From IMG/VR virus record IMGVR_UViG_3300024257_000013, positions 1 to 55,570 of that record: 55,570 nucleotides of DNA; one strand, 5' to 3'. The notes beneath the pieces were generated by a model. That model searched no databases. It worked only from the letters and a program-made list of their open reading frames with translations, and was not told the DNA's origin. Origin of the DNA: a virus. Shown piece by piece: positions 5,087-53,944 of this stretch. Within the stretch, counting starts at the first letter, position 1. Each line of letters starts with the position of its first letter. The translations under genes and the position numbers were made by a program.

Positions 5087-8000
5087 ATGTCTACGCTATC
5101 TGACGATACTCAACTGTTTGACTCTATTCTTGCAAAAAAGCAAGATGAGTTATTTGATACAACTACTCAGAAACAAATAGATCTTGGTGCTGTACCTTAT
5201 AGGTCATTAGACTTATCTAACGTGCCTTATAACACAGTAGATTTGTCTAACGTCGAAGATGAACAGGTTGTTATAAACAATCCAAGAGAATTTCCTTATT
5301 ATCTTCACGATGCTACGGTTCAGACTGGCTTGGGGTACTTGGTCAATACTGCCGGTTCTCTTGTAAGTGGTGGTGGAACTCTTCTAAATTCTGTACTATC
5401 TTTTCCCAATATAATAGCTAATGCTGTTGGTGGTGAAGAAAGTGCCATGAATGTAAATATGTTAGATTTCTTTGACATCTTGGGAGATCATGCACAGTCT
5501 TTTACTGATAAATTTCATAACCCTCTTCTTACAGAAAAATTTCACAAAGATGCTACCCGGGCTTACCGCGATAACAGTGGAGCAGTAGATGTGCTGATTG
5601 GACTTGGTGGCTCTATTGTTAATAACCCTGCAGCATTGCCACAAGTATTTGGTCAGTCGTTTGCTACTATGGCAGCAATGGCCAAGGGTGGTAGTGCTCT
5701 TGCAATGGCCTATGCTGGCGTATTCGGTGATAGAGCACAGCAATCAATAGACCGCCATAAAAAAACACATAATGGATTAGAGCCTGATGGTGATGATTTG
5801 CGGAACATAATGATTGCTGCTGGCGTATCAGCTGCTATTGAAACTATCGAATCTAAGTTCTTGTTTGGTAAGTTAGGCAATGTAGCGAAAGCAGTTAAAT
5901 CTAAACAAACACTATTAGGTACAGCGGGGAATGTTGGTAAAGGCAGTACTGCTGAAAGTGTACAAGAATACTCAGCAGAATATTTAACAGAACTGTCTGG
6001 TAGAGGTGATACTGTTACAGGCCTACTAGACCCTGCATTGCTGGAAACTCCTGCAGTCAACGCAACTATTGGTGCTGGAGTAGGTGGAGGAGTAAAAGCA
6101 GTATCTGGAATTTCTGGAGGAGTTAAAACAGCTGCTTCTAAAACTCTTGATAAAGCATCAAAAGCAATAGATAAAGCTATAGAAACAAGCACAACTAAAC
6201 GTCAAGAAAAAGCTGTAGCCAGCAATGATTTTATAACTGCTGCAGAAGCAGCTATAGAAAAAGACACCTCTAAATTTACTACTTTCGAAGAACATAAAGA
6301 TAATCTCTCTTCTGTATTGGACCTGATAGACAAAGCCAATGCAGGTATTGACGCTACTGCAGAAGGAAGCAGTAAAGATGTAGATCGTATTTTAGAATTA
6401 AGCAGTAAAGTTAAAATACTTACCGATATAGCATTAGCTGTAAAGTCTGCAGAAACTACTGGTCTTACACCTAAACAGGCAGAAGAGGTTATTAACAACT
6501 CTAAAGATGTCTCTGCCGAAGTTAGTGAAGCAGCAGTAGCCACAGTAGTTAATACACTTAAAGCTGGTGGAGATGTAGAGACTAAAACCTTAAGCAGCAT
6601 TAAAGGGAATATATTTTTTAACGACTTATCTACTGAAGATAAAACAGTAGTTAAAACTTATGAAGAAGCTAGACAACAAGCTACCAGTGTAGGAGAAGTA
6701 AATAAAGATATTGTAGAAGGAGATCCTGTAAAAGGCTTTCTTGGAGTTAAGCAGTATAAACAAAAAGTAGCTTCTGCCATACAATCACAGAACTTTAAAG
6801 CATTAGTTAAGACAATGCAGGCATTGGTATCTTTTAGAGATAGCCAAGTATACAAATTAGAACATCCTCCTAAGGGGTATAAACAGCATGCAGCTGCATT
6901 TGAAAAACAGCTACGTTCTGAAATAGCCTTAATAGATAAACATATTGAGCTGTTTGATGCTCAAGCTAAAGCTTCTTTCAATAAGTCTCCTTTAGCCAAT
7001 ATAGCCCCTTCTAAGCCGTCTGAGCAAACAGACAAGCAATCACAAGCCAAACCTGAGAAGTCTGCTGAAACAGCCTCTAAAGAGCCAGAATCTAGCGATA
7101 CTGAGTACAATAAGAAGTATGATGCTTTATTAAAGAAAATTGAAGGTATAAAGTATCCAAAACTTAAAGCACATGTAACTAGTCAATTATCTCAAGTTAC
7201 TCCACAGAATATAGATGAATTTAATTCTTTAATAGATGCCTGGGTTAAAGAACGAGATGATAAAGCTAAACCAAAAACAAAGGCTGAGCCTAAAAAGACG
7301 GAAACAAAAGTTAAAGCAGAAAAAGCTGTTAGTACTCCTCTAGAATCTACTGGGACTAAAGAAGTAGTAACGCCTAAAAAATATAGACTGTTTCCTAATA
7401 AAGATATTTATGCAAATGCTGATCAAACTACAGCAATTGATTCACTAAAAAATTGGTGGAGTAACTTAACCACTAACCGTATTTTTATATTATCTGGCAG
7501 AGGTGGTACAGGAAAAACTACTGTAATAAGTAAAGCCATAAGAGAGATGGGTGTACCTGCCAGTGAAGTACAGTTTGCATTGCCTACGCATAAAGCAAAA
7601 CAGGTAATAAAAAATTCCGCTAAAGAATTTAGTAACTTTTCTACTATAGCTTCTCTATTGGGATTAGTACCTAGCAAAAAAGAAGGAGAAGATTTTAAAC
7701 AAGACTTAATGTTGTACGAAAATAGTGTAGAAAGACTACGGACTGAAGGTGTTAAGTTAATTGTGGTAGATGAGGCCTCTATGACATTGCTCAGTACTGT
7801 TGAGTCGTTATTAGATCTGGCAGAAGAGATACATGCACGCATTATCTTTATGGGAGATAATGTGCAGTTACCCCCAGTAGACAAGAAAGGCGATCCTAAC
7901 AAATTAGGTATATCTCCTGTATTCAGCAAACTGACCGGGTTTAGTAATCCATTAAGCGCAGATGTAGATTCTTCAAATACTGCGTCTTTGTACCAGCGTA

Positions 8001-9634
8001 TGAGACAACAAGGTGACTCACCTATACTGCAAGTAACAGACATCTTGGCAGATGCTGTTGAATATGTATATTCTACTATCCGTGAAGGAGCTAAATTTAT
8101 AAGGGGTAAAAGAAACCCTAATATTATTTTTGACGGTAAAGACAGCAAAACTGCACAAGGTACGGTTCTGTATAAATCAGGACATATTAATCCAATAATA
8201 GATGAATTTGTTGAAGAACACCTAGAAGACCAATTCAATGTAAAATGGATTAATTATAATAATGCTGCACATCAAAGTAGTAAAAACATAAGAGCCAGAA
8301 TACGGGCAAAACTGTTTCCGAATGACCCACATGCTGCCGATGTAGAAAAATATCCTTTTCTGGTAGACGAGCATTTAATGATTGGTGCTATTGCGTCTAC
8401 TTATAAAAATGGAGAAGTATCTGCTACTTCTTTGCACAACGGGGATGAAGTAGTTGTTACAGGGGAAACAAGACAAACTTATATAGATATACCAAAAACG
8501 GTAGGCAGCGGTACTTATATAGGCATACCAGTAGATTTGCTTCCTGTTTCAATTGACAGTAAGAATTATGATATTATTATAGGAAATAAGAATACTAAGA
8601 AAGCTTTAATAAAGCAGTTCTCCGCTAACCAGAAAAGGTATCCAGGAATAGCAGATAGTATAATTAGGGGACTGACTGAAGGATTAGGGCCAGCTTACAT
8701 AATTAATACACATAAGGCACAAGGCAGTACATATAAAACTGTATACGTAGATTACAGCAACATAACAGGAACTACGGGTTCACCGGTATGGGTAGACACT
8801 TTAAGATCTTTATATGTAGCCACCTCTAGACCTACTGACAAATTAGTTATGGTCGGCAATAAGCTAGAACTTGGAGTAGGTAAAACAGTTAATGAGATAG
8901 TCGGAGATACTTCAAAAACTAAAAGGGAAAAAGAAAAAGTTATAACTAAACCTGCAGGAGAAAAAAGTACTGTTCGTGTTGGTGATAAAGAAGTAGAAGT
9001 TACACTTACTGAAAAAATTGATGATAATGGTTCATTAGCGGTAACAACTAATGGAAAAATAACGTTACGCAAAGGAATTACAAAAGCTGAAGTTATTGCA
9101 CATATAACCGGTAAAACAGATTCTTTAGTCAGTAGACAGAAGAATGTAACCACACAGTATTTACTAGACAAATTTAATATCAATTTACCAGGTATCCTAA
9201 ATGCTTTACCGATTGAAACACTATTAGAGTTTATTGTTGCACACGAAGTTGGACACACTAAACAGAAAAACTTAACAGAAAAGTATCTTTCTGTTACATC
9301 ACAAGCTATTGCAAAAAGCTTTAATCTTGAAGATGCTAGTAACAAATATTTAGCTGATAGTGCTATTAAACTAGAAGCTGGTGCACACCGTTATGCCCTG
9401 CAGGAACTGAAACTGCTTACTAATACTAAACCGCCAGTAGTTTCTAAATTTGTAGATGAGTTAAGTCAAATAGATACTAGTAAGTTTGTTATTCCAAATC
9501 CTTCTGTCTATAAAAAGGACGCTAAACTATCTGCTTTTGCAGGTATTAGTAAGACCCGGTATAGTACTCTTATTGTAAAAAGTGATAATATATTAAGAGC
9601 TTTAAAACAGATGGTTGAGGAAGGTTGTGTCTAA
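5087..9634 (+). CDS. Polyvalent virion protein: ejection domain + SF1 helicase + HExxH zincin
   Basis: 1515 residues in three parts. Residues 1 to about 400 are Gly/Ala-rich with hydrophobic helices, like a phage ejection protein. A charged KPSEQTDKQ-type linker spans about 640-780. Residues 780-1270 form an SF1 helicase of RecD/Dda type: Walker A GRGGTGKT at 804-811, Walker B VVDEAS with Asp895, GDNVQLPPV (motif III), then THKAQGSTYKTVYVD and LYVATSRPTDKLVMVG (motifs V-VI). Residues 1290-1480 carry a metallopeptidase signature, HEVGH at 1386-1390. It lies inside the late virion operon, so the helicase is probably packaged and ejected. Such large polyvalent proteins are known in phages and conjugative elements; this combination is unusual for an N4-like phage. 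Virion location is inferred from position. Confidence 0.85.
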   Translation: MSTLSDDTQLFDSILAKKQDELFDTTTQKQIDLGAVPYRSLDLSNVPYNTVDLSNVEDEQVVINNPREFPYYLHDATVQTGLGYLVNTAGSLVSGGGTLLNSVLSFPNIIANAVGGEESAMNVNMLDFFDILGDHAQSFTDKFHNPLLTEKFHKDATRAYRDNSGAVDVLIGLGGSIVNNPAALPQVFGQSFATMAAMAKGGSALAMAYAGVFGDRAQQSIDRHKKTHNGLEPDGDDLRNIMIAAGVSAAIETIESKFLFGKLGNVAKAVKSKQTLLGTAGNVGKGSTAESVQEYSAEYLTELSGRGDTVTGLLDPALLETPAVNATIGAGVGGGVKAVSGISGGVKTAASKTLDKASKAIDKAIETSTTKRQEKAVASNDFITAAEAAIEKDTSKFTTFEEHKDNLSSVLDLIDKANAGIDATAEGSSKDVDRILELSSKVKILTDIALAVKSAETTGLTPKQAEEVINNSKDVSAEVSEAAVATVVNTLKAGGDVETKTLSSIKGNIFFNDLSTEDKTVVKTYEEARQQATSVGEVNKDIVEGDPVKGFLGVKQYKQKVASAIQSQNFKALVKTMQALVSFRDSQVYKLEHPPKGYKQHAAAFEKQLRSEIALIDKHIELFDAQAKASFNKSPLANIAPSKPSEQTDKQSQAKPEKSAETASKEPESSDTEYNKKYDALLKKIEGIKYPKLKAHVTSQLSQVTPQNIDEFNSLIDAWVKERDDKAKPKTKAEPKKTETKVKAEKAVSTPLESTGTKEVVTPKKYRLFPNKDIYANADQTTAIDSLKNWWSNLTTNRIFILSGRGGTGKTTVISKAIREMGVPASEVQFALPTHKAKQVIKNSAKEFSNFSTIASLLGLVPSKKEGEDFKQDLMLYENSVERLRTEGVKLIVVDEASMTLLSTVESLLDLAEEIHARIIFMGDNVQLPPVDKKGDPNKLGISPVFSKLTGFSNPLSADVDSSNTASLYQRMRQQGDSPILQVTDILADAVEYVYSTIREGAKFIRGKRNPNIIFDGKDSKTAQGTVLYKSGHINPIIDEFVEEHLEDQFNVKWINYNNAAHQSSKNIRARIRAKLFPNDPHAADVEKYPFLVDEHLMIGAIASTYKNGEVSATSLHNGDEVVVTGETRQTYIDIPKTVGSGTYIGIPVDLLPVSIDSKNYDIIIGNKNTKKALIKQFSANQKRYPGIADSIIRGLTEGLGPAYIINTHKAQGSTYKTVYVDYSNITGTTGSPVWVDTLRSLYVATSRPTDKLVMVGNKLELGVGKTVNEIVGDTSKTKREKEKVITKPAGEKSTVRVGDKEVEVTLTEKIDDNGSLAVTTNGKITLRKGITKAEVIAHITGKTDSLVSRQKNVTTQYLLDKFNINLPGILNALPIETLLEFIVAHEVGHTKQKNLTEKYLSVTSQAIAKSFNLEDASNKYLADSAIKLEAGAHRYALQELKLLTNTKPPVVSKFVDELSQIDTSKFVIPNPSVYKKDAKLSAFAGISKTRYSTLIVKSDNILRALKQMVEEGCV

Positions 9635-15144: not shown

Positions 15145-15392
15145 TGTTTTCTTCCAAATCTTTCAGTACAAAATCTTTTAGTACGGACAGTTTCTTATTT
15201 GATTCTTTTGAAGAGATAATAGAAAAAGTTCTTCCTAAAGTAAAAGTATCTTCTGGACCAGGCGCTGAAAGAGCTGTACTGCAGCGTAATCAGCCACTAG
15301 ACAAAAAAATAGAGTATACTCAGAACCTTCAACAAGAAGATGAAGAGCTACTTAGCATAGTATCTCTTCTACTAAAATCAGGTATTCTGTAA
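15144..15392 (+). CDS. Small protein downstream of fibre
   Basis: 82 residues, linked by 1-base TAATG overlaps at both ends to the fibre gene and the vRNAP gene. The N-terminus is built of tandem SFSTKSFSTDSF units and the C-terminus is helical and acidic. Short Ser/Phe-repeat proteins after fibre genes occur in other podoviruses and may help fibre assembly or attachment; this is inference. Confidence 0.6.
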   Translation: MFSSKSFSTKSFSTDSFLFDSFEEIIEKVLPKVKVSSGPGAERAVLQRNQPLDKKIEYTQNLQQEDEELLSIVSLLLKSGIL

Positions 15393-18300
15393 TGGCGTGT
15401 AATGTAGAAAAAATTCTTAAAGAGCATAATGTAATTACGTTGTCATTAGATAACAGTAGATTACCTAAAGGCAACAGAAAAGGGTTTAACATTATAAGCG
15501 ATCCTGAAGCTTCTAAAGAAGAGAAGCGTAAAGCTGTTCATGACCTTATTCAGATCAACCTTAAAACCAGGCAAACCTTGCTGTTAGATGCTTACGGCAA
15601 AACAGCTCTTAAAGAAGAGTATGTTATACAGCCTCCTAGCAGGGAAATTGAACTAAAGAACCAAAAAATTATTGAGAGAATATCAGCTACTGCAGCAGAG
15701 AATATTCTGAACAACTCAATACTAATTGGAGGACTTAGAAGGTTATCTGATTTCATAGAGACCAGCTCAAAGAAACTGAACGTACTGTTTCACAATTCTA
15801 AATCCTTGTCTGATTATCTCAACAACACTAAAGAAGGCGCTATTGCCTACTCAAAATACTCCAAAGAAGATAAACAATTTGTTGAGTATATTAAAAGAAA
15901 TACCGAAGGGTTTAATTCTTTTGTACATGGAGATAAAGATAACGCACCTATTCTCCCATACATGACAGACAGTAGATTCGGTAACTTCACAAAAGGTAAA
16001 GCTATAGGTAATAGAGCTGTACTGGATGAGTATACGGATATGTATCAATATTTACTGCAGAAAGCAGAAACAGGCGGTTACACAGTAGATCCTATGGTTA
16101 TTGAAGCTACTGGTATCGCTATTACTAATTGGTTAGCTACTCAAGCTACCGGTACGTTTACAAACACCTGGGAAGACATAAATAGAATATTTGGTAGAAA
16201 TACTAGTGAATGGGTAAAACCAAAACACGAAGAAAAATTTACTGATATAGGAGCTGTACAGTCTAGTGTCATAGACAGCTTAGGTTCTGAGATATTTAGT
16301 ATGCTTGGATTTAAAGCTAAAGTATCTGATGTCGATGGTTCTGTAGCACCTCGGTTAAAAGTAGCATTAGGAGCACTGGCTGTAGCTTATATGATAGACA
16401 GAGGAACGCTGCAACAAACCGCTGTACCTGCTACAGACTTTCCTTCAGATACAGGAACTATCAGCGAATCACAGCAGACAGTTGGTAAAGATACTCTTTT
16501 TGTAAAAATAGTTAGTCAGGAAAATATTGAAACCTTATCTGAAATAAGAAAAGCTACTGAAGCTGTTCCTGAACTTCTTAATCTAGAAAACTATAAAGTA
16601 TTTCCCGGGAGTAAACCTTCTACACATACTCCTAAGTTTATGAGAGGTACTCGTCAACAGACACCAGAAAGAACCGGTAACACTATTAGAAATATACAAC
16701 AGGATAAGTGGACTGTTAGAAATAGTACTGTAAATAAATTCTTTGAGCTGGATGAAGCAACACAAGCTATTGTCACAGGAAGAAATACTGACATAGAAAA
16801 TGCGCATGTAACTCAACGTAAAAGTTTACAAGCTGTTAATAACAGAATTGATCGTAGTCTGGACAATATTAAAGAATTTATTGGGAAGTTACGTAAACCT
16901 CAACAATCTTTCTACATGAAGTATTTTGTATCCCGGGGTGGAAGACTGTTTATAGACAATAATACTATTGACCCTATTCAAGACAAGCTAATCAGGCACA
17001 TGATTGGTTTAAAAAGTCACCTGGTATCTGTAGAAGGTCTTAAGCTAAATAGGACATTTCAACTAGCAGTAGCTCAAGCATTTGGTTATGGAATAGATAA
17101 ACATCATTTTCTTGATAGTTTGAAAGAATTTAAAAGTATTCTTGCAGCTACAAAGGATGCTGTTAATGCATTAAAGAAAAATGTTAACGACAGGACCCCA
17201 GAAGACATAATAGCTATACAAGAAGCTGTTAAGTTAGGTGGAGAAAAAATGCATACATTTGAAGCATTATTGGCTTTAACTAAGTATTCTCCTGATAAGC
17301 CTTTCTTAACTACCTTGGGTATTGAAACAGATGCTGTTACCAGCGGAGTGATGATTGGTAATATGTTATCACTATTAGACGGTGTAGAAGACCTGGCTTC
17401 TGGTGGAGTATTTTTAGACAATGTAACTACTGATTATCCTTCTCATGCTGCTTTGCCTAATTCTATGGACTTGTATCAGAAACTTACAGCTAAATGGCAG
17501 AAAGTTATATCTGATATGGCTAACAAGAACAAAAACAACGCAAAAGCCATATCGATTGCTACTAGAAACATTATTGGTTCATTCATAAAAGAAGGAAATC
17601 TTATATCTGATATAGGACGTGAATTTAGTAAAGATCCTTTAATGGTCACCAATTATGGATCTGCGCTAAAAAAAGCTAAAGAAAATTTTGCATACGCAGT
17701 ACTGAACCAGTTTTATTCCAAAATAGCCAAAGCAGAAGATGCAGAACTAATGGTATTAGGGAATGCGTTAGAGACACTTATAAAAGAAATTATACCTATA
17801 GATCAGAAGCTGGATAAAGATTTTGTACTTACACACAAACAGCAGGATACTTTTATAAAGTCAGTATTAGAAGTTCATGGTGAAGCTCTTACCATGTCTC
17901 TAGAAGACAGACTTGGTAACTTTATAAAATATAGAGAGAAAATTAATAAAGCTTTTCAAATTATGTTTTATACGTTTAACAAAAAATTTGAAATTGCTTT
18001 AGAAGCTAAAAAAGAGGAACTTGGTAGAATACCGTCATTAGAGGAGACTGAAGCCCTCTTAGACACTTTAAGAAAGTTTATGCCCATTGTCAAAGGACCA
18101 CTTTCTAAAGGCTTAGATGACGGAATAATAGCCATAAAGGGAGGTTTAAGAAGAAACTATATCAAAGCATACCAAGTACAGATAAGTTTTAGTAGACCTT
18201 TAAGGAATACTGCACGAGAAGAAGGTACTTCCAGTATCACTAGTTATGCAAAATCTTATAAGTTCCTTGACCCGGGAGTAGCTGGAACAGTTACTAATAT

Positions 18301-21300
18301 TCACAATATTGACTCTGTTATACAGCAAGCTGTTTTATCTGCTTTTGCAGCATTAAATGTACACGATGCAGCAGTGTACTCTTTAGCTGATGTAGCTAAA
18401 GGTACAGGTGTCTATAATAAATCTTTTATAGATGTAGTTACTTCATATGACTTAATGCAGGAAGTATCAGATAGTCTTAATAATGTTATCGAAAGTGTTA
18501 GAGCACTACCTGAAGAAGAACGTAGTCAAATTTCTACTCATTTGTCAGAAAACTTGTACAGCAAAAATGACAAAGGTAAAAGAATTGCCTTTAACTTAAT
18601 TCAAGAAATAGCAGAATTAAAAGAATTGCATACAGAAGTTAAAGCAGCCAGGGAGAGCTTATTAAAAGATCATTCTCATATAGCTGTTAACCATTCTGCA
18701 TATCATGATTCAGAATCTGTGTACATTTTAGAAACTAAAAATGTTAAGCCTTTAGATTCTTCTGATGGGCCAATAGCGGCTGTTTTTAAAGAAATAGAAA
18801 GCTTTAAAGGTTCTATCGGAAGAAGCATAGATTTTGAAAATTTTACCTCTTTATTTTCAGGAGTTATAGATGCTACTACTATTCAAACTATCTTCAGTAA
18901 GCTTGAAGATGTAGGAGTAGAAAAAGAATCTACAGCACATACAGCTACCTTACAGGAACTGTTAGATAACTTTATCAAGTTACAACATGATATCGATATT
19001 AAAGTGGGTGAAAGCGGAGACACTACAATAGGTGCTCAGCGTACCTTTACAGATGGTACTCAAGATATTCATGTATTAGGTTCAGTAACAGGCAATAAAA
19101 ACAACGTAAAGATGTCTGCACAAGAAACGTATGTGCACGAACTTATACATGCCGTAACTGAGTACGCAGTAGATACAAATTCCGGTTTACGTAGAGGTTT
19201 AAAACAAATATTTGCACTTGCTGAGAAAAATACTACTTGGAGAGATTTTCTTCCTAAAGGTAAAGATTTTACAGCAGATGAAGTACGAACAGCTAAAGAG
19301 ACTTATGAGTATTTGTTTAATAATAGTCGTAGTTATAAAGATCCTGTTTCTGGTCGTACTGTAAATCCTTATTTGCATGAATTTGTAGCTTATGGATTAT
19401 CTAATGAAAGATTTGCAGCTAAATTATCTACATTAACAGTAAGAAATAGAACTAAGCGTGAAGGTAGTTTATGGGAACGTTTAGTGCAATGGTATAAAGA
19501 CGCACTTAAATATGCAGCTAATAAGCTACGGGGTATTGAAAATCTTACTGCAGATAAAGCTTTAAGAAAAATGTTAGATCAAGCCTTAACTGCTAGTGAA
19601 AAACAAAAGCGCAGTATTTTTAGGATGTTTAATGTACTTGATTCTGCTAATCAGATAACGGTAGATAAAATTCATGCTTGGATATTTGCACCTGCAGCTA
19701 AGTATGCTAGGAAAGATAAGCCTAAACGTATTCCGGGTAGAGTACTTCATACTTTGGCAGGATTATTAGATTCTAAAATATATGCTGAATTAGGTTCTGT
19801 TATCAAACAAGTTAGTCGCAATATAGGAATAACAGAAAGAAATTTCTTTGTTAAATTAGTGAGAGAAATACAGCAGCAAAAAGGAAATAACGCTGTATGG
19901 CATTCTTTGCTTCGAGCTTCTAAGCATATTGTAGACCAAGCACGTATGCGTGAAGCTACAAACGTAATTAAACATATTCGTAAAGGTTTTCATACAGAAG
20001 TTACTACAGAAGAAAGTGAAGCTCTTTATAAAATATTTATAAAGCTGGATTTAGTGTCTTTGTTGGATACTGCTGAAAGAGACAAATATACGCCCGATAA
20101 TCTACTGGGGCTTCTAAGCTCAGATAGCTCTTTGGACCTTTTAATTACTTCTTTAGAAAAACAAATTAGAAAAGAATATAAAGCTAATGGTTTGCTTTAT
20201 ATAAACCAGGCAGAAGGTTTAGGCTCAAAAATGGCTACTAGCAATACCGTAGACTGGCAATTAAATAATGCTTACGCAATCGCTAATGCAGCGGGATTAG
20301 GTATTGAAGTATCTGGTGACTTGAATAGGGCTACTAAACTTATTGATGAACTGGCTTCCTTGTATGGTATTAAACACAGTAAACAAGATTATCGAAATTT
20401 AGCCCATGCTGTATATAAGAGGGAAAATGCTGCTGATGGTTTAGATAATGGAATAGCTAAGTTATTTTCTTTGCACAAGTTAAATAAAGAAATGTCTTTA
20501 GAAAAACTGTTTCACAATAATAAAATGCAAACAGAAAAAGGATACTCTAAAGAAACATTTGATCCCAGAGTAGATGTAAGAACAGCAACTGCTGACCAGA
20601 TAGACATACTAATTTCTGAAGGTTACACCTATGCTGCTGCGGATAAAAAACCTCTTACGATGGATATCTCTGATAAATCAGAAAAAAGATGGTTAATGGT
20701 AAATCCTAATGGAGGTGACGCTACCTGGGTTAAAGCTATTGTTTCTCTTACAGCTAAAAAACATCAAGGTGAAGCATTGCAGGATATCTACCAGGCTATG
20801 GACCCTGAAATGAGCTATAGAGATGCTAAAATTAAAACTGCTGGAGTAATAGCAGAAAAACGTTTAAAGGCTTATAGGCAGCTTTCTCAGCGTGTTAAAC
20901 CAACAGAAACAGTAAAGTTGCAGCCTATTGTGTCTGAGCACGGTAATGCAGTTAATCTACGTTACTTAATGTCTGAACACAATAAAGACAGTTTGCTCAA
21001 CCGGGATAACAGATTTGATCATGTATTAGGACGTATGTTTGGAAGTATTGTGGATAAAACAGGCTCTACAGAAATAAACAAAAAAGTATTAATAGAAGCT
21101 AAAAAAGAATTTGAGCAAAACAAAAGTACGCAATTACGTGAATATGTGAATTTTACTGAAACTTCTTCAGATCCTGAAATAGCAGAAATGTATAAACTTA
21201 TGCCTCTAGAAATGAAAAAGGCTATTAAAAGTATTTGGGGTGAAAATGAAGATGTTTATATTAGGGAGGAATTCTTAAATCTGATATTCGGTTTCAGAAA

Positions 21301-22330
21301 AATGAAATTTACAGATAAGAAAAATTTTGTTGGAGGTACAATTAGAAGTGTCAATAAAACACTAACATGGCTTTTAGGCAATACACTATTTCCTAAAGCA
21401 CCTAATGTAGATATTGAAAAGTTGTGGATAGCAACAGTTAAAATAGCTAAAGAGAATATTGTCATAAAGACAGGTGTTATTCTATTACCTAACTTTGTCA
21501 GTAATAATCTTATCCTTTTTGCTAAAGGGGTAAATCCCAGAAATATAGCAACATACCAGGCAGAAGCACTAGTAGAGTTGGAAAACTATCAGAAAGATTT
21601 GTCTGAAAGAGATATTACAGAAAGAGAATTACAAAGTAATATCAAGTTATCTGCAAATAAACGTAAAAAGTTAGAACTTAAGCTAAGTAGGTTACAAGAC
21701 AGTGTAGACAACAATCCAGTAGCAGAATTAATTGATGAAGGCATTTTTCAAAATATCATAGAAGATATTAATTTAGAAGAGGATATATATAGTGGTAAAG
21801 CAAAATTAGCAGAAAGAGCAAAGGAGCTTGCTGATAAGTATTTACATGAATATGTAGCTACCTCCTATAAATACCTATATATGGATAAAACTACTGGACC
21901 TTACAAATTACTGCTTAGGGCTACACAGGTAAGTGATTTCATTGCTAGATTTGCTTTGTACAAGCATAGAACATCAAACGTCCCTAAGAAGTTTAAATCA
22001 AGAGAAACTAGACTAGAATACAAACAAAAGGTTTTAAAAGAAGTTGTAGAAACTTTTGTAAACTATGATGTAGTTACTTCTAAAGAGCTTCAAACTATTA
22101 ATGATCTTGGAGCTATTATGTTTACAAAGTTCTTTTTCAGAAAATTTAAAATTATATTTAGTCTCTTTACTGAACGTGCTGCTTCTATGATTAGTATTCT
22201 TGCAGTAGAAAAAGCATTTGGAGAGGCAGATTCTATTGACGATAATCCGTTTAATATTTGGTCTAGAGTCAATTTTCCTGATGATATTGTGGAAGAAGCT
22301 GCTCAGCTTCCCGCAATAAGCTGGCTATAG
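15392..22330 (+). CDS. N4-like virion RNA polymerase (vRNAP) with HExxH motif
   Basis: 2312 residues. The first 1050 or so hold a T7/N4-type single-subunit RNA polymerase: SRGGR-type motif (TxxGR equivalent) at about 513-518, motif A ETDAVTSG with Asp647, motif B REFSKDPLMVTNYG with Lys747 and Tyr755, motif C NVHDA with Asp992. Vanished or altered motifs were not noticed. Further on is HELIH (1249-1253), a zincin signature, then long helical regions. N4 vRNAP is about 3500 residues, packaged and injected to transcribe early genes from hairpin promoters on single-stranded DNA; this one is shorter and has its core near the N-terminus. The gene ends at a terminator and converges on SSB, as in N4. 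Confidence 0.93.
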   Translation: MACNVEKILKEHNVITLSLDNSRLPKGNRKGFNIISDPEASKEEKRKAVHDLIQINLKTRQTLLLDAYGKTALKEEYVIQPPSREIELKNQKIIERISATAAENILNNSILIGGLRRLSDFIETSSKKLNVLFHNSKSLSDYLNNTKEGAIAYSKYSKEDKQFVEYIKRNTEGFNSFVHGDKDNAPILPYMTDSRFGNFTKGKAIGNRAVLDEYTDMYQYLLQKAETGGYTVDPMVIEATGIAITNWLATQATGTFTNTWEDINRIFGRNTSEWVKPKHEEKFTDIGAVQSSVIDSLGSEIFSMLGFKAKVSDVDGSVAPRLKVALGALAVAYMIDRGTLQQTAVPATDFPSDTGTISESQQTVGKDTLFVKIVSQENIETLSEIRKATEAVPELLNLENYKVFPGSKPSTHTPKFMRGTRQQTPERTGNTIRNIQQDKWTVRNSTVNKFFELDEATQAIVTGRNTDIENAHVTQRKSLQAVNNRIDRSLDNIKEFIGKLRKPQQSFYMKYFVSRGGRLFIDNNTIDPIQDKLIRHMIGLKSHLVSVEGLKLNRTFQLAVAQAFGYGIDKHHFLDSLKEFKSILAATKDAVNALKKNVNDRTPEDIIAIQEAVKLGGEKMHTFEALLALTKYSPDKPFLTTLGIETDAVTSGVMIGNMLSLLDGVEDLASGGVFLDNVTTDYPSHAALPNSMDLYQKLTAKWQKVISDMANKNKNNAKAISIATRNIIGSFIKEGNLISDIGREFSKDPLMVTNYGSALKKAKENFAYAVLNQFYSKIAKAEDAELMVLGNALETLIKEIIPIDQKLDKDFVLTHKQQDTFIKSVLEVHGEALTMSLEDRLGNFIKYREKINKAFQIMFYTFNKKFEIALEAKKEELGRIPSLEETEALLDTLRKFMPIVKGPLSKGLDDGIIAIKGGLRRNYIKAYQVQISFSRPLRNTAREEGTSSITSYAKSYKFLDPGVAGTVTNIHNIDSVIQQAVLSAFAALNVHDAAVYSLADVAKGTGVYNKSFIDVVTSYDLMQEVSDSLNNVIESVRALPEEERSQISTHLSENLYSKNDKGKRIAFNLIQEIAELKELHTEVKAARESLLKDHSHIAVNHSAYHDSESVYILETKNVKPLDSSDGPIAAVFKEIESFKGSIGRSIDFENFTSLFSGVIDATTIQTIFSKLEDVGVEKESTAHTATLQELLDNFIKLQHDIDIKVGESGDTTIGAQRTFTDGTQDIHVLGSVTGNKNNVKMSAQETYVHELIHAVTEYAVDTNSGLRRGLKQIFALAEKNTTWRDFLPKGKDFTADEVRTAKETYEYLFNNSRSYKDPVSGRTVNPYLHEFVAYGLSNERFAAKLSTLTVRNRTKREGSLWERLVQWYKDALKYAANKLRGIENLTADKALRKMLDQALTASEKQKRSIFRMFNVLDSANQITVDKIHAWIFAPAAKYARKDKPKRIPGRVLHTLAGLLDSKIYAELGSVIKQVSRNIGITERNFFVKLVREIQQQKGNNAVWHSLLRASKHIVDQARMREATNVIKHIRKGFHTEVTTEESEALYKIFIKLDLVSLLDTAERDKYTPDNLLGLLSSDSSLDLLITSLEKQIRKEYKANGLLYINQAEGLGSKMATSNTVDWQLNNAYAIANAAGLGIEVSGDLNRATKLIDELASLYGIKHSKQDYRNLAHAVYKRENAADGLDNGIAKLFSLHKLNKEMSLEKLFHNNKMQTEKGYSKETFDPRVDVRTATADQIDILISEGYTYAAADKKPLTMDISDKSEKRWLMVNPNGGDATWVKAIVSLTAKKHQGEALQDIYQAMDPEMSYRDAKIKTAGVIAEKRLKAYRQLSQRVKPTETVKLQPIVSEHGNAVNLRYLMSEHNKDSLLNRDNRFDHVLGRMFGSIVDKTGSTEINKKVLIEAKKEFEQNKSTQLREYVNFTETSSDPEIAEMYKLMPLEMKKAIKSIWGENEDVYIREEFLNLIFGFRKMKFTDKKNFVGGTIRSVNKTLTWLLGNTLFPKAPNVDIEKLWIATVKIAKENIVIKTGVILLPNFVSNNLILFAKGVNPRNIATYQAEALVELENYQKDLSERDITERELQSNIKLSANKRKKLELKLSRLQDSVDNNPVAELIDEGIFQNIIEDINLEEDIYSGKAKLAERAKELADKYLHEYVATSYKYLYMDKTTGPYKLLLRATQVSDFIARFALYKHRTSNVPKKFKSRETRLEYKQKVLKEVVETFVNYDVVTSKELQTINDLGAIMFTKFFFRKFKIIFSLFTERAASMISILAVEKAFGEADSIDDNPFNIWSRVNFPDDIVEEAAQLPAISWL

Positions 22331-25657: not shown

Positions 25658-27448
25658 CTAAAAAGTATTCAAGATTTTTTGTATTTCTGCTGTTGTTGCG
25701 TTAGGTGACAGTGCTATTTCTTCTGCCCAGTTCCGTCCAATACCACATTCAAGTGTATTAGGGACTTGTTGGCACACAAGAAAATCTTTTTTACCTATTT
25801 CGACTAAATTATCGTTATACCACTTTACTATTTCTGCATTGCTTGAAATATTAGAGTAGATAGAGTCGTAAATGGTGGAGGTAATTTGAATTTCTTCGGT
25901 TAGCTGTTCCTGCTCTATTCGATAATTTAGTTCATTAACAGCTATTAATGTAAGTATACTCCAAAACTGAAAGTTGCTGTTAAAAAGAGTACGAAAAACA
26001 TCATCTACGTTATCACAATAAATCCTAGCTCCTAAGCCCAAATGCAGGTAACCCTGCTTTTGTGCTGTAGGTATAACATAATCATCTAAGAATGCCCTAA
26101 CTTCTGGATAAAGAACATTATGATAATTATCATAAATTTCTTTAGTTATTGTTCCTCCTTTATCTGCATCCGGAAATCCCAAGTAAGCTAATTTGAAGGT
26201 GTTAGGTTTACTTTTTTGACGTATTTCTTTTAGGATTGTATTTTTACCTTCAACCATTTGCTTGAATCTTCGTACTTTGTCTTTGTAATTTCCCTGCACT
26301 CCGATAACTTTTTCTATTTCTTCTGGATAGTAGCCAAGTGCGTTGTAACAATGCGCATCTAGAGTTTTATCTTTTTGTATTGCTAATTTCCCTTCATCTA
26401 ATGTTATATTTGCTAATACAACATCTTCTAAAGAGCTATAGTCTGCTTGAATTACAAGCATACCTTTTGGAGCAATAAAGCACTTTTTCAAAGGTTTTGC
26501 GTATATGGATTTGGTTGAGGGCATATTCAAAAGATTTGGTGAATTGCTCGTATTTCTCCAAGTCTTAGCTCCACCTAAACGAATATTGCCGTGGAGTACG
26601 CCATCAATGGTGTAAGAGTCGAATGCCTTTATAAAATTGTTCTTAATAATCCCACTAAAGGAGTGATCGATAAGTGCATCCAGTAACAGCAGTAGATCTT
26701 TACCTGTCGAATTTTTTTGCAACTCTTCTAATTGATCTCTTCCCCAGGAATCATCACCTGTTGTTTTGCTGGTAGCAGTAGACTCTAGACCAAGCATGCT
26801 GAACAGTTCCTGTTTCTGTTTAGTGCTTCCAGGGTTGAATGCGTTCACCTTAACTTTTGTGTTAGCATTTTCGTATCGTGGCCTGTTCCACAGTTCCACC
26901 TTATATTCCGCCAGTGCAACCATCCCTGCTTTCACATATTTATTGGTAACTGAAACATTCTTATGAATTAGCATGTCTACCAGGTGATCATTAGCCCATA
27001 CATTGTGCTTCTTTAATTCGGCTACAGACCACTTCTCTTTACAATACTCTTTAGCCCCAGTAGATTCTAGATACGTGTTCATTACCCATGTGCGGTGTAC
27101 CATGTCAGAAGCCACATACTCTTTCAGATAGTGATCTGATGTTCTTACTGCTTGGGTAGCCTTCTCTGCATGAGCTTTCTGAGCTGCAGGCAGCCTATGT
27201 TTTTGATACCGCATTACGATCTTGTTTGCTTTTAAAGCTACGGAGACTTTTTCCAAAACATCATCAATAACTTTACGCAATTCATCGACTGCTTTTTCAT
27301 CAATATGCAGTCCAGCATCCATTATTTTGATCATATCTGGAATGAAATGCTTTAAAAAGTTTTCATAAAAGAAATCAGGTTGTTCTTCAGAAGGATCATA
27401 GTCAGCCGGATAAGGAAACGGCAGTAGTTCGTAAGGTCTTTTAGACAT
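25658..27448 (-). CDS. DNA polymerase, family A, polymerase domain
   Basis: 596 residues. Motif A is VIQADYSSLEDVV with Asp336; motif B is RQKSKPNTFKLAYLGFP; motif C is TIYDSIY with Asp528, where most family A enzymes have HDE, so the second carboxylate is replaced by Ser. It lacks a proofreading domain; that domain is the separate gene at 28472-29152. N4 gp39 is one protein holding both, so here the replicative polymerase is split, with a small gene and an HNH endonuclease between the halves. Replicates the phage genome. Confidence 0.9.
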   Translation of the reverse strand: MSKRPYELLPFPYPADYDPSEEQPDFFYENFLKHFIPDMIKIMDAGLHIDEKAVDELRKVIDDVLEKVSVALKANKIVMRYQKHRLPAAQKAHAEKATQAVRTSDHYLKEYVASDMVHRTWVMNTYLESTGAKEYCKEKWSVAELKKHNVWANDHLVDMLIHKNVSVTNKYVKAGMVALAEYKVELWNRPRYENANTKVKVNAFNPGSTKQKQELFSMLGLESTATSKTTGDDSWGRDQLEELQKNSTGKDLLLLLDALIDHSFSGIIKNNFIKAFDSYTIDGVLHGNIRLGGAKTWRNTSNSPNLLNMPSTKSIYAKPLKKCFIAPKGMLVIQADYSSLEDVVLANITLDEGKLAIQKDKTLDAHCYNALGYYPEEIEKVIGVQGNYKDKVRRFKQMVEGKNTILKEIRQKSKPNTFKLAYLGFPDADKGGTITKEIYDNYHNVLYPEVRAFLDDYVIPTAQKQGYLHLGLGARIYCDNVDDVFRTLFNSNFQFWSILTLIAVNELNYRIEQEQLTEEIQITSTIYDSIYSNISSNAEIVKWYNDNLVEIGKKDFLVCQQVPNTLECGIGRNWAEEIALSPNATTAEIQKILNTF

Positions 27449-27764
27449 TCTCTTTAACCCATTTTCTTGCTAATTCCAGTGTATCAAGAGGTCCAGTTAC
27501 ATTTTCAATCGTGGCTGACAATATCAGTTTTACGGAATATATTTCGGAACCCATAAAGTAATCTACTGTTATGAAGTACCCTTGTTTTAATACACCGGTA
27601 AGGTAATTAGTACTGAAAAAGCTATCAGCACCAAACCAATTATCAATATACTGTTGTGGAAATTTGTCAGATAGGCTATTTATGATAGTAGTCTTATTAC
27701 TCATAGAATTTTCTTCACAATGAGCAAATTTTGAGTCTACTAATTGTAATGGTACGTTAGGCAT
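27441..27764 (-). CDS. Small protein between endonuclease and polymerase
   Basis: 107 residues from the ATG at 27764, which has GAGGAG 7 bases before it and overlaps the end of the HNH gene. The C-terminus overlaps the polymerase start by 8 bases. A second good candidate start (MSNKTTIINSLSDKF) lies at 27704. It may be a genuine small protein or the linker of a formerly continuous exonuclease-polymerase; no family recognised. Confidence 0.6.
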   Translation of the reverse strand: MPNVPLQLVDSKFAHCEENSMSNKTTIINSLSDKFPQQYIDNWFGADSFFSTNYLTGVLKQGYFITVDYFMGSEIYSVKLILSATIENVTGPLDTLELARKWVKENV

Positions 27765-28497
27765 CACTAAACTCCTCTATATGTTGTTCTAAATCTTTAT
27801 CACTAAAGTTTCGTTTACTGCTTGAGCCTGTAGCAATAATAAATTCTTCTCTTCTTATTGCAGCTATTAAAGCAGTTTTAAAATACCCACTGAATATTTT
27901 CTTTTTCTTTATAGAGATTTGCGCTACCCAAGAATTTTTTAAGTGTCTTATTCTTTTAGGTCTACTCACTCCTATATACCCAGAGGTATTTGTAGTCAGT
28001 AGTAATTTACCTGTATTAGACTCAGTACGTTTTGCAGTATTATTAGTTGTATGGGGTAGGTTGTTATCACGTACATAGGTATCATAAGCTTGAGCAGCTT
28101 CTTTTATACAGTCGTAGTACCCTACTTTTATTACCTTTGATTTTACGCTTATTGACACCTCCCATTTACTGTATTTCTTATTCCAGCTAACTCCTCTATA
28201 TCCGGATTTATTATGGGAATAAAGAATTCTAGTATTTGAAGATTGAACTATTTGGTTTGTCCATCTGCAGTTATCTGGGCAGTAGTTATCATTATTATTT
28301 TTTCTATCTATAGAAGAATTTTCGTTATAATTATTAGATAAAGCCCAAGATTTAAAGGCTAAATAAGAATTTTTCCATTCTGTACAAACTTCAATATTTT
28401 TATAAGTTTTTTCGTATTGTTTTGCTCTACACCTATTTTTCATGCCTTTCCAAATATTATGAAGTCTAGTATCAGTATCCCCGTGAATTTCTCTCAT
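27757..28497 (-). CDS. HNH homing endonuclease with AP2 DNA-binding domains
   Basis: 246 residues. N-terminal HNH nuclease with the IDRKNNNDNYCPDNCRWTN motif, then two AP2-like repeats: SGYRGVSWNKKYSKWEVSIS (about 98-140) and SGYIGVSRPKRIRHLKNSW (about 178-215). This is a classic free-standing phage homing endonuclease. It lies between the exonuclease and polymerase genes, overlapping the exonuclease stop by 26 bases. It is selfish DNA spread by cutting endonuclease-free alleles. A decayed relative lies near 38117-38340. Confidence 0.88.
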   Translation of the reverse strand: MREIHGDTDTRLHNIWKGMKNRCRAKQYEKTYKNIEVCTEWKNSYLAFKSWALSNNYNENSSIDRKNNNDNYCPDNCRWTNQIVQSSNTRILYSHNKSGYRGVSWNKKYSKWEVSISVKSKVIKVGYYDCIKEAAQAYDTYVRDNNLPHTTNNTAKRTESNTGKLLLTTNTSGYIGVSRPKRIRHLKNSWVAQISIKKKKIFSGYFKTALIAAIRREEFIIATGSSSKRNFSDKDLEQHIEEFSDA

Positions 28498-29152
28498 TTT
28501 TATTGATGTGCTCTTCTAATTGTTCGTAAAGTAGTATTGTAGCACATCCATCAGTAGCTGCATACATAAGAAACTTAGGATCTCTTAAATTTTTAGGTTC
28601 GTATGTGTCAAATAAAGACCATGCAGGCAGGTAGTGATCTCCAACAAGTTCTTTCAGTCCAACCTTTGCTTTCCATATATCAACATGGTTAACAAAAGTT
28701 TTAGCTAACAATTGAGTATCTTCATAATTCTTCGGAAATTTCTTTACCCGGTGATACATCAGTTTAAGATCAAACAAACTGTTGTGGACAATAATTAACC
28801 CTTCATATTTGGCTAACCAGTTCCATATAATCATTTCTACTGCCATGTTTTCGGCAATAAGGACAACACTCTCGCAGTCACTGATACCAAATATAAAATG
28901 TGTAACAGTTACCAGCGAAGGAAAACTTAAACCTGAACTATTAACTACCTGCAGTGATAACTTTTTATTTTTTAAACTGATTTTAGGATTTTTCAGTAAA
29001 AGTTTAGCTTCTTTACGTTCTTCTTTGGAGTACACACTACGAGTTTCTGTGTCAAAACTGAGCATAATGTGCTCTTCAAGTTGTGCTAATTTTTGACGAA
29101 TAAACCAGGGTGTCGAATATACTTCGTAGGATACTTCTATAAAATCATTCAT
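28472..29152 (-). CDS. 3'-5' exonuclease (proofreading) subunit of DNA polymerase
   Basis: 226 residues. DnaQ-like motifs: ExoI SFDTET, ExoII HNSLFDLKLM, ExoIII YAATDGCATILLYEQ. Matches the exonuclease half of family A polymerases such as N4 gp39. Split from its polymerase by the HNH-AP2 gene. Its last residues (about KNERNSRGY) overlap the HNH start and may differ from the ancestral end. Presumably works with the polymerase in trans. Confidence 0.85.
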   Translation of the reverse strand: MNDFIEVSYEVYSTPWFIRQKLAQLEEHIMLSFDTETRSVYSKEERKEAKLLLKNPKISLKNKKLSLQVVNSSGLSFPSLVTVTHFIFGISDCESVVLIAENMAVEMIIWNWLAKYEGLIIVHNSLFDLKLMYHRVKKFPKNYEDTQLLAKTFVNHVDIWKAKVGLKELVGDHYLPAWSLFDTYEPKNLRDPKFLMYAATDGCATILLYEQLEEHINKNERNSRGY

Positions 29153-39186: not shown

Positions 39187-41610
39187 TTACTTCCTCGTAA
39201 GTACAGGCAACATATTTGCATTGTTTAAGTTAACACCACATCTAGAACATGCTACATAATAACAACGCATTGCCACCAGGTCTTCGTGTGTTTCTACACC
39301 ACCTTTATCGATGATATCTCCTACCCGAGCATTGAGATCGTCTGCAATATAAACTGTTTCATATTCCAAACCTTTGGAGGTAAATACTGTAGCAATCACG
39401 TAACTAAGATCGACTTTTGATTCTTTTGCCATTTTGTATAAATTAAATATATTTACACCCTTACGGTTCAGTGTAAGAAGTAAATTTACAGCACTCTTTG
39501 TTTCCTGATCATCGATACATGCCAACAAATGGCTCAGGTAAGTATCCCCAGGTTTGCGGTTCTTTGTGTAATTTTCGTACTCTTCTTCAAGGTACTTATA
39601 CTTTTTTTGGTACACCTTTTTACCCTGGCCAGTTGATACTATAGCTAGTGGGTATGAGAATATTTCAGAGATGTTTCTAAGAAGGTGAAAACCTTTGTTT
39701 TGAGCTAATCTATGACTAATCTTTGAGATAATAGCAGCATTTGTTAAAGTACAATATAAAACTTTATCATTTTTGACAGGTTCATCTGTACCTACAAATT
39801 TAAACTCTTTGTCAGTATACTTTTGCATAAAAGATTGAATACGTTCAGCAATATCTATACTGCAACGAAAAGATTGAGTTAGGTTGAGTACTGGAGCATC
39901 TTCTAGTTCTTCGAAGCCGTCTACCAGATTTAAGAAATCGTAAATAGCCTGACTAGGTTCACCTAATCCAAGTTTTTTTGGTGCCTCAATAAGTTTGAAG
40001 ATTTCTAAAGCTACTGCAGTTGTATCATTTATTTCATCCAGGATAACCAGGTCATACTTACATTTGACAGTACCTTCAACCAATAAGAGGTGAAAGTACT
40101 TCAACATGAAATTGAAGGTAGGTGCCAACGTTCCTTCGAGCATCATTTCAATGTACTTAATAGCCAGTTCCTGTAGCTTTACTTCATCCAGGGCACTCTC
40201 CATAAATTCAAACATATCTACTGAAGCAGAAACGTAGAACAAATTGATAGCCTGTATGACTTTGTATTTTGCACTGTAAGAGATTTTCTCTTTAATACAG
40301 GTGTAGGAAATGTCACTAATATCCTGTTTAGGTTTTGCGTACCGGTAAGCTAATGCATGCAGTGTTTTACACTCAACATTAGTATTTCTGAATCGATACT
40401 TTCCCTCTTGCACAATGGCTTTGTTAAAGGCTGTATACAGTCCTCTAGATGGATTAATCTCATCAGCGATACGTTCACTCATAAAACTATTATGAGTAGT
40501 TACATAATCATCCGTAATATATAAATTATCTCCAGATACCGTAATGCATTGCTGTTCTTCTTGATAACAAAGTTTTTCAATACTGACTATCGCTTTTCTT
40601 ACTGTATTTTGTTTTCTAGGTGTTACTTTTATAGCCTTACGCTTTAGGCTGAAGGGATTAAAATCATTAAATCGTATTATGATAGTAAAACAGCTTCTGT
40701 TGTCTTTTTTATCATACAAATGTCTAGTTGCTGTACCGCCTAATGACTGAACTAATTCTGTAATATCTTTTGCTAGTTTTTCTGACGTAGTAGAATAAGT
40801 TACACGATTTCTTGTTCTTACATTTCCATCTGAGTCCATTAATCCATGCAGTAAATCTATTCTTTGAAGTTTACTTGAAAATTTATAGGTATCTGGAATA
40901 AACCTTTCATGAGAATATGTACCATGAAGGTTTAACTCTTTAAGTATCCTTTTTAAGCTGTGATCTCCGTGTTTTTGTACAGAATGGTTAAATACCTGTT
41001 GTAATCCTTTTTCTGAGGTATACCTAATCTTAGCCGGTTTTGTACCTTCAGGTAAAAGTGTTATACATTTATCTATGATACTTTTATCTTCTGAATAGCT
41101 ACTTAAACACACCTGAGTCTGAAAACTCCCATCAGCTATAAGTGCTCCCAGTAGATACGGATCTAAGGGTAATTCTACATAATTTGTAGCAATATTTGTA
41201 AGGGGTACTTTAAACTTATAGCTTTTAGTATTTTTCAAATTTTCTTTCAGTAACTGTTTTAAAGAAACAGCCCTATATTCTTTATTACGCCAATTTTGGC
41301 TATTTACATACCATAAATGATTAAGTCCACATCTAGCTTTACTTCCATCACTAAAATTTATTTCATACACATCTTTTATACCCTGTGGGTGAATTGCTAA
41401 TACTGTGTTTATAGTATTGTAAGGACTACATACTTTATCACCTACTTTAATTTTTCCAATGGTAGTCCAACCAGTAGGTGTAATAATTTTACTGCTTAAA
41501 GGTTGTTCTTTACCAGTACCGGCACCGGCTGATACGAGCAGTATTCCATCGGTGCTAACCACATGATCTTTTACGTCATGTTGTTCTGGAGTGTATTTTG
41601 TATAGCTCAT
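39187..41610 (-). CDS. UvrD-like SF1 helicase containing an intein
   Basis: 807 residues as precursor. Extein motifs: SAGAGTGK (Walker A, residues 27-34) joined after splicing to SFMSERIAD, then LVILDEINDTTA, GEPSQAIYDF, LTQSFRCS, TVFTSKGLEYETVYIADD and MRCYYVACSRC. Spliced product would be about 467 residues, a typical small phage UvrD/Dda-like helicase. Residues 35-374 are an intein (separate entry) inserted right after the P-loop Lys, so the ATPase is inactive until splicing. Acts in DNA replication or recombination. Confidence 0.9.
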   Translation of the reverse strand: MSYTKYTPEQHDVKDHVVSTDGILLVSAGAGTGKEQPLSSKIITPTGWTTIGKIKVGDKVCSPYNTINTVLAIHPQGIKDVYEINFSDGSKARCGLNHLWYVNSQNWRNKEYRAVSLKQLLKENLKNTKSYKFKVPLTNIATNYVELPLDPYLLGALIADGSFQTQVCLSSYSEDKSIIDKCITLLPEGTKPAKIRYTSEKGLQQVFNHSVQKHGDHSLKRILKELNLHGTYSHERFIPDTYKFSSKLQRIDLLHGLMDSDGNVRTRNRVTYSTTSEKLAKDITELVQSLGGTATRHLYDKKDNRSCFTIIIRFNDFNPFSLKRKAIKVTPRKQNTVRKAIVSIEKLCYQEEQQCITVSGDNLYITDDYVTTHNSFMSERIADEINPSRGLYTAFNKAIVQEGKYRFRNTNVECKTLHALAYRYAKPKQDISDISYTCIKEKISYSAKYKVIQAINLFYVSASVDMFEFMESALDEVKLQELAIKYIEMMLEGTLAPTFNFMLKYFHLLLVEGTVKCKYDLVILDEINDTTAVALEIFKLIEAPKKLGLGEPSQAIYDFLNLVDGFEELEDAPVLNLTQSFRCSIDIAERIQSFMQKYTDKEFKFVGTDEPVKNDKVLYCTLTNAAIISKISHRLAQNKGFHLLRNISEIFSYPLAIVSTGQGKKVYQKKYKYLEEEYENYTKNRKPGDTYLSHLLACIDDQETKSAVNLLLTLNRKGVNIFNLYKMAKESKVDLSYVIATVFTSKGLEYETVYIADDLNARVGDIIDKGGVETHEDLVAMRCYYVACSRCGVNLNNANMLPVLTRK
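40489..41508 (-). mobile_element. LAGLIDADG intein with class 3 (WCT) splicing residues
   Basis: 340 residues (35-374 of the host protein). Starts EQPLSSKIITPTGW, so the first residue is Glu, not Cys, Ser or Ala. Block B GLNHLW gives His98 and Trp100; block F QCITV gives Cys355; block G VTTHN gives Thr372, His373, Asn374, with Ser375 as +1 extein. Trp-Cys-Thr at these places is the signature of class 3 inteins, which splice through the block F Cys. Homing endonuclease motifs: LLGALIADG at 153-161 and LLHGLMDSDG at 253-262. Confidence 0.85.
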
Positions 41611-53869: not shown

Positions 53870-53944
53870 ATCCCCGTGGACAACCGGTCAAGTCACTGGG
53901 CTTTCATCCCAGCATAGCGAGTTCGATTCTCGCCGGGGATACCA
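53870..53944 (+). tRNA. tRNA-Glu (anticodon TTC)
   Basis: Full cloverleaf by eye: acceptor ATCCCCG / CGGGGAT (7 bp), D-arm around GGACAACCGGTCAAGTC, anticodon stem CTGGG / CCCAG with loop CTTTCAT (UUC), T-arm GCGAG-TTCGATT-CTCGC, discriminator A and encoded CCA. Bacterial/phage type. May support translation of late AT-rich messages. Confidence 0.92.

Follow-up and report, generated by a model that had tools for sequence, protein, structure and literature searches.

Class 3 inteins are characterized by the absence of a nucleophile at position 1 and by three residues, Trp at block B position 12 (B:12), Cys at block F position 4 (F:4) and Thr at block G position 5 (G:5), referred to together as WCT (PMC5222942; PMC7891396). 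At +1 these inteins have Ser or Thr; the authors of that study knew of a single exception (PMC5222942). The mechanism of this class has been published (PMC5222942; PMC7891396; PMC6195587). Msm DnaB-1 was proven to be class 3 by mutating Cys F:4; until this residue is mutated, either the class 2 or the class 3 route is in principle open to an intein with the class 3 signature (PMC5222942). A 2020 survey identified 1,701 class 3 inteins in nr, of which 82.5% contain LAGLIDADG motifs (PMC7891396). The term "classic P-loop insertion" has been used for inteins that separate the Walker A Lys from the next Thr, an arrangement common in bacteria and archaea (PMC5050341).

The intein described here was identified in a 55,570-base IMG/VR virus record, henceforth referred to as the window. 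Its closest described counterparts include DnaBi1 of Mycobacterium smegmatis, a class 3 intein with WCT and no position-1 nucleophile that is inserted in a helicase P-loop whose Ser is the +1 residue (PMC6195587), features that the window intein appears to share. Msm DnaBi1 is a mini-intein without an endonuclease that begins with Ala and is hosted by the replicative helicase DnaB, whereas the window intein contains a LAGLIDADG domain, begins with Glu and interrupts a UvrD/FBH1-like protein. The mycobacteriophage TerL1-a P-loop inteins occupy a comparable site, between the invariant Walker A Lys and a nucleophilic Thr (PMC5050341), but their host protein is a terminase.

Results

The coordinates of the intein, its host helicase and the individual residues are provided in Table 1. 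The helicase flanks matched Pfam UvrD-helicase (7.1e-7, above cut-off), phrog_1967 DNA helicase (3.3e-42) and, among PDB sequences, F-box DNA helicase 1 (FBH1; 3e-12). The predicted spliced product contains Walker A and UvrD motifs and is an SF1 UvrD-like helicase according to Pfam, phrog_1967 and the alignment with intein-free homologues. Removing residues 35-374 in silico from the 807-aa ORF leaves 467 aa, the length proposed for the spliced product in a first-pass annotation of this DNA.

Table 1 Features of the intein-bearing helicase locus, in window coordinates.
Feature	Position	Strand	Basis
ORF, 807-aa intein-bearing helicase precursor	39187-41610	(-)	Translation
N-extein, residues 1-34, SF1 (UvrD/FBH1-like) helicase, last residues ...AGAGTGK	41509-41610	(-)	Translation
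Predicted class 3 intein containing a LAGLIDADG homing endonuclease domain; precursor residues 35-374 (340 aa)	40489-41508	(-)	Translation, relatives
Glu35, intein residue 1, non-nucleophile	41506-41508	(-)	Translation
His98, block B (B:10)	41317-41319	(-)	Invariant in 9- and 32-sequence alignments
Trp100, B:12, W of WCT	41311-41313	(-)	Invariant, both alignments
Predicted LAGLIDADG homing endonuclease domain, limits approximate	40621-41166	(-)	Pfam, Foldseek
First motif LLGALIADG, precursor 153-161, Asp160 retained	41128-41154	(-)	Asp and Gly invariant, both alignments
Second motif LLHGLMDSDG, precursor 253-262, Asp259 and Asp261 retained	40825-40854	(-)	Asp invariant, both alignments
Cys355, F:4, C of WCT, putative first nucleophile	40546-40548	(-)	Invariant, both alignments
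Thr372, G:5, T of WCT	40495-40497	(-)	Invariant, both alignments
His373-Asn374, C-terminal His-Asn of intein	40489-40494	(-)	Translation, alignment
Ser375, nucleophile at +1 and also the Ser of Walker A in the mature helicase	40486-40488	(-)	Translation
C-extein, remaining helicase with UvrD-family motifs	39187-40488	(-)	Pfam, PHROG, PDB matches

The intein starts with EQPLSSKIITPTGWTTIG and ends with LYITDDYVTTHN, followed by Ser375, and the insertion point is directly after Walker A Lys34. Nine intein-free records were aligned (L001, L002 and L010-L016); L014, L015 and L016 have the same sequence, and the nine therefore represent seven distinct sequences. These are 54-66% identical to the window protein and join exactly at GK/S or GK/T, where the slash marks the insertion point, so that the N-extein/C-extein junction aligns across all of them. 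Their P-loops are uninterrupted, for example LLVHAGPGTGKSFMS compared to LLVSAGAGTGK/SFMS in the window, and the position matching Ser375 is Ser or Thr in every aligned intein-free homologue. Because these homologues join exactly at the predicted junction, the intein boundaries are regarded as fixed. The first-pass annotation had placed the intein at the span given in Table 1, with Glu1, Trp100, Cys355, Thr372 and Asn374, splitting Walker A just after Lys34; translation confirmed each position, and the intein-free homologues run through at this point. Viral contigs queried with the intein-free protein yielded homologues without the intein that are 57-66% identical over the extein, and the Alteromonas phages PT11-V19 and R22Y are intein-free and 54% identical.

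The Pfam domain matches, tblastn, PDB matches and intein-free homologues together place the intein far beyond chance. Matches were observed in 756 phage records by tblastn with the intein, and no second copy was found in the same viral record. Since the intein interrupts the P-loop, the ATPase activity of the helicase can reasonably be inferred to need splicing; the same assumption was made for the P-loop-inserted DnaBi1, citing work on RadA (PMC6195587).

The window phage is here called N4-like because the window encodes an N4-type virion RNA polymerase, matched by the C-terminal half of a 2312-aa protein (15392-22330 (+); phrog_2206, 1121.6 bits). In the literature collection searched, no paper linked class 3 inteins with Schitoviridae. 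Elsewhere in the window, a 1515-aa protein (5087-9634 (+)) combines an SF1 helicase domain of Dda-like/PIF1 type, located around 780-1260, with an N-terminal half that weakly matches the virion RNA polymerase family. A family A DNA polymerase is encoded in two ORFs at 25658-29152 (-), with the 3'-5' exonuclease at 28472-29152 and the polymerase at 25658-27448, and an HNH/AP2 endonuclease ORF (27757-28497) sits between the halves. Rfam at gathering score returned no intron at the split polymerase locus. Both halves match PHROG families of near-equal length, so a divided polymerase may be usual for this lineage. A lone tRNA gene is located at 53870-53941 (+) (Rfam RF00005, 56.5 bits).

The structure of the intein was predicted with AlphaFold2 on a 32-row alignment (pLDDT 86.6, pTM 0.87). 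Top Foldseek matches in the PDB were PI-SceI, TliVMA, PhoVMA and PI-PfuI; the endonuclease part matched I-DmoI, and the splicing part matched WCT-engineered gp41-1 (6riz) and MchDnaB1 (6rix, 6riy). The model and its intein matches indicate a HINT fold with blocks A, B, F and G. The predicted fold, a splicing domain with an endonuclease, resembles that of PI-SceI and PI-PfuI, although sequence identity to these is only ~12-16%. To our knowledge, neither of the two is a class 3 intein.

Pfam identified LAGLIDADG_3 at precursor residues 253-312 (5.8e-10) and Hom_end (9.7e-5). Both LAGLIDADG motifs are present with their acidic residues, as the first-pass annotation had noted, and the domain may let the intein spread by homing. 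Two near-identical contigs (L017 and L018), the closest that bear the intein, share 99.94-99.96% DNA identity with the window throughout. An initial comparison gave 95% identity for their exteins versus 100% for the inteins; this apparent signal of recent homing was rejected as spurious, since the 95% arose artificially from the use of the spliced protein as query. Nucleotide comparison of the window with L017 and L018 revealed no sign of intein-specific transfer.

Two intein alignments were prepared, one of nine phage sequences and one of 32 viral-contig sequences; neither shows any variation at the positions of His B:10, Trp, Cys, Thr, His and Asn. The window intein combines Glu1 with Trp B:12, Cys F:4, Thr G:5 and Ser+1. 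In a set of 95 related loci (15 from phage records and 80 from viral contigs, some being near-duplicates), WCT was present in 94, in one aligned piece at 92 loci and split over two pieces at 2, with the Thr frequency biased upward because the set was gathered partly with a retrieval pattern that included THN. The sole exception was a Cys1 control from Salmonella phage Shelanagig (L026), in which Leu replaces Trp at B:12 and Gly replaces Cys at F:4. Thr or Ser occupies +1 in nearly all 95 loci. A THN ending alone was rejected as a class 3 marker, since the same ending occurs in two class 1-like controls, L026 and L115. Against PDB sequences, the intein matched the class 3 inteins MchDnaB1 (6rix/6riy; 3.4e-5) and Msm DnaB-1 (6bs8; 2e-4), and the match to WCT-engineered gp41-1 (6riz; 6e-9) was better than that to wild-type gp41-1 (3.5e-6). 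The class 3 reading, put forward in the first-pass annotation from the WCT set, is well supported at the sequence level by the related loci and by the published definition.

First intein residues over the 95 loci include Ala (50), Glu (14), Cys (8, after one false partial match was dropped), Ser (6), Leu (5) and Asp (4). Glu1 was rejected as a rarity, being outnumbered in the retrieved set by Ala alone. The Lys/Ser or Lys/Thr P-loop is the usual insertion site of related inteins in phage helicases and terminases. The rarity implied by the first-pass annotation was not borne out, as related inteins often start with Glu, often occupy the P-loop site and often carry a LAGLIDADG domain.

Eight viral-contig inteins of the same family (L047, L048, L051, L059, L087, L096, L099 and L107) start with Cys (CQPL.. 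or CQPY..) but retain all three WCT residues. These eight therefore have both class 1 and class 3 nucleophiles, and surveys demanding no Cys at position 1 would miss Cys1-WCT inteins such as L047.

Extein similarity to the window helicase was detected by profile in six intein-bearing loci (L003, L005, L024, L031, L036 and L046). In L031, L036 and L046 the extein is ~30% identical and the intein lies at the same site, GK/S or GK/T. In a FastTree phylogeny the window intein and that of L031 form a pair (support 0.98, 46% identity), and most nodes above this pair are weakly supported. Examples of AQPL/EQPL-type P-loop class 3 inteins are found in the helicase of Vibrio phage 424E50-1 (L003), in Klebsiella phage KP13-16 (L005) and in contigs L031, L036 and L046. 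They share the GK/S or GK/T site, the same residues and the LAGLIDADG domain with the window intein; they differ in sequence (34-46% intein identity) and begin with Ala, Gln or Glu.

Discussion

The helicase of this N4-like phage very probably carries, at the classic P-loop position, a full-length intein of class 3 that is spliced via Cys355. For splicing, its dependence on Cys355 and homing, we infer the following course. Cys355 would attack the Lys34-Glu35 peptide bond to give a block F branched thioester, and the N-extein would then be transferred to Ser375. Cyclisation of Asn374, assisted by His373, would free the intein, and an ester to peptide bond rearrangement would restore the Walker A sequence AGAGTGKS in the 467-aa helicase. 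The LAGLIDADG domain would cut intein-free alleles near the P-loop codons, with repair copying the intein in.

Direct attack of Ser+1 on the N-terminal junction, with Cys355 incidental, would be class 2-type splicing. Position 1 of the window intein is non-nucleophilic, and direct +1 attack is compatible with the sequence alone (PMC5222942). Known class 2 inteins, however, have Ala1, Ser G:6, Cys+1 and Asp F:4 (PMC4031507), and the window intein, which has Glu1, His G:6, Ser+1, Cys F:4 and Trp B:12, departs from this Mja KlbA type and groups among the WCT inteins; a class 2 route is accordingly judged extremely improbable. Decay of the intein into a non-splicing form that leaves the helicase interrupted has a precedent in the class 3 intein Arsp-FB24 Arth_1007 (PMC3196547), but that intein is without Cys F:4, which the window intein has. 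Every residue that catalyses splicing is intact, as are the acidic residues of the LAGLIDADG motifs, and the reading frame runs uninterrupted across the intein both in the window and in L017 and L018, which makes decay very improbable.

A conditional redox switch, coupling helicase activation to redox state, would be an added property compatible with class 3 splicing. The class, P-loop position and Ser+1 are the same as in Msm DnaBi1, in which oxidation reversibly blocks splicing via a Cys48-Cys118 disulfide (PMC6195587), and the window intein contains further cysteines. Cys48 of DnaBi1 is nevertheless described as non-conserved, and endonuclease-bearing inteins have been suggested to splice constitutively (PMC7891396); such a switch is considered quite improbable. 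Similarly unlikely is a reading in which splicing is not constitutive and the intein serves as a switch, based on timing or redox state, that delays helicase activity to a defined point in infection.

The class 3 intein of the window is a further member of a large known phage class 3 group, with no feature found outside the known range. It adds one example to this big family and leaves current views on the working and distribution of class 3 inteins unchanged, while illustrating one insertion site that is patchily occupied across one phage helicase family.
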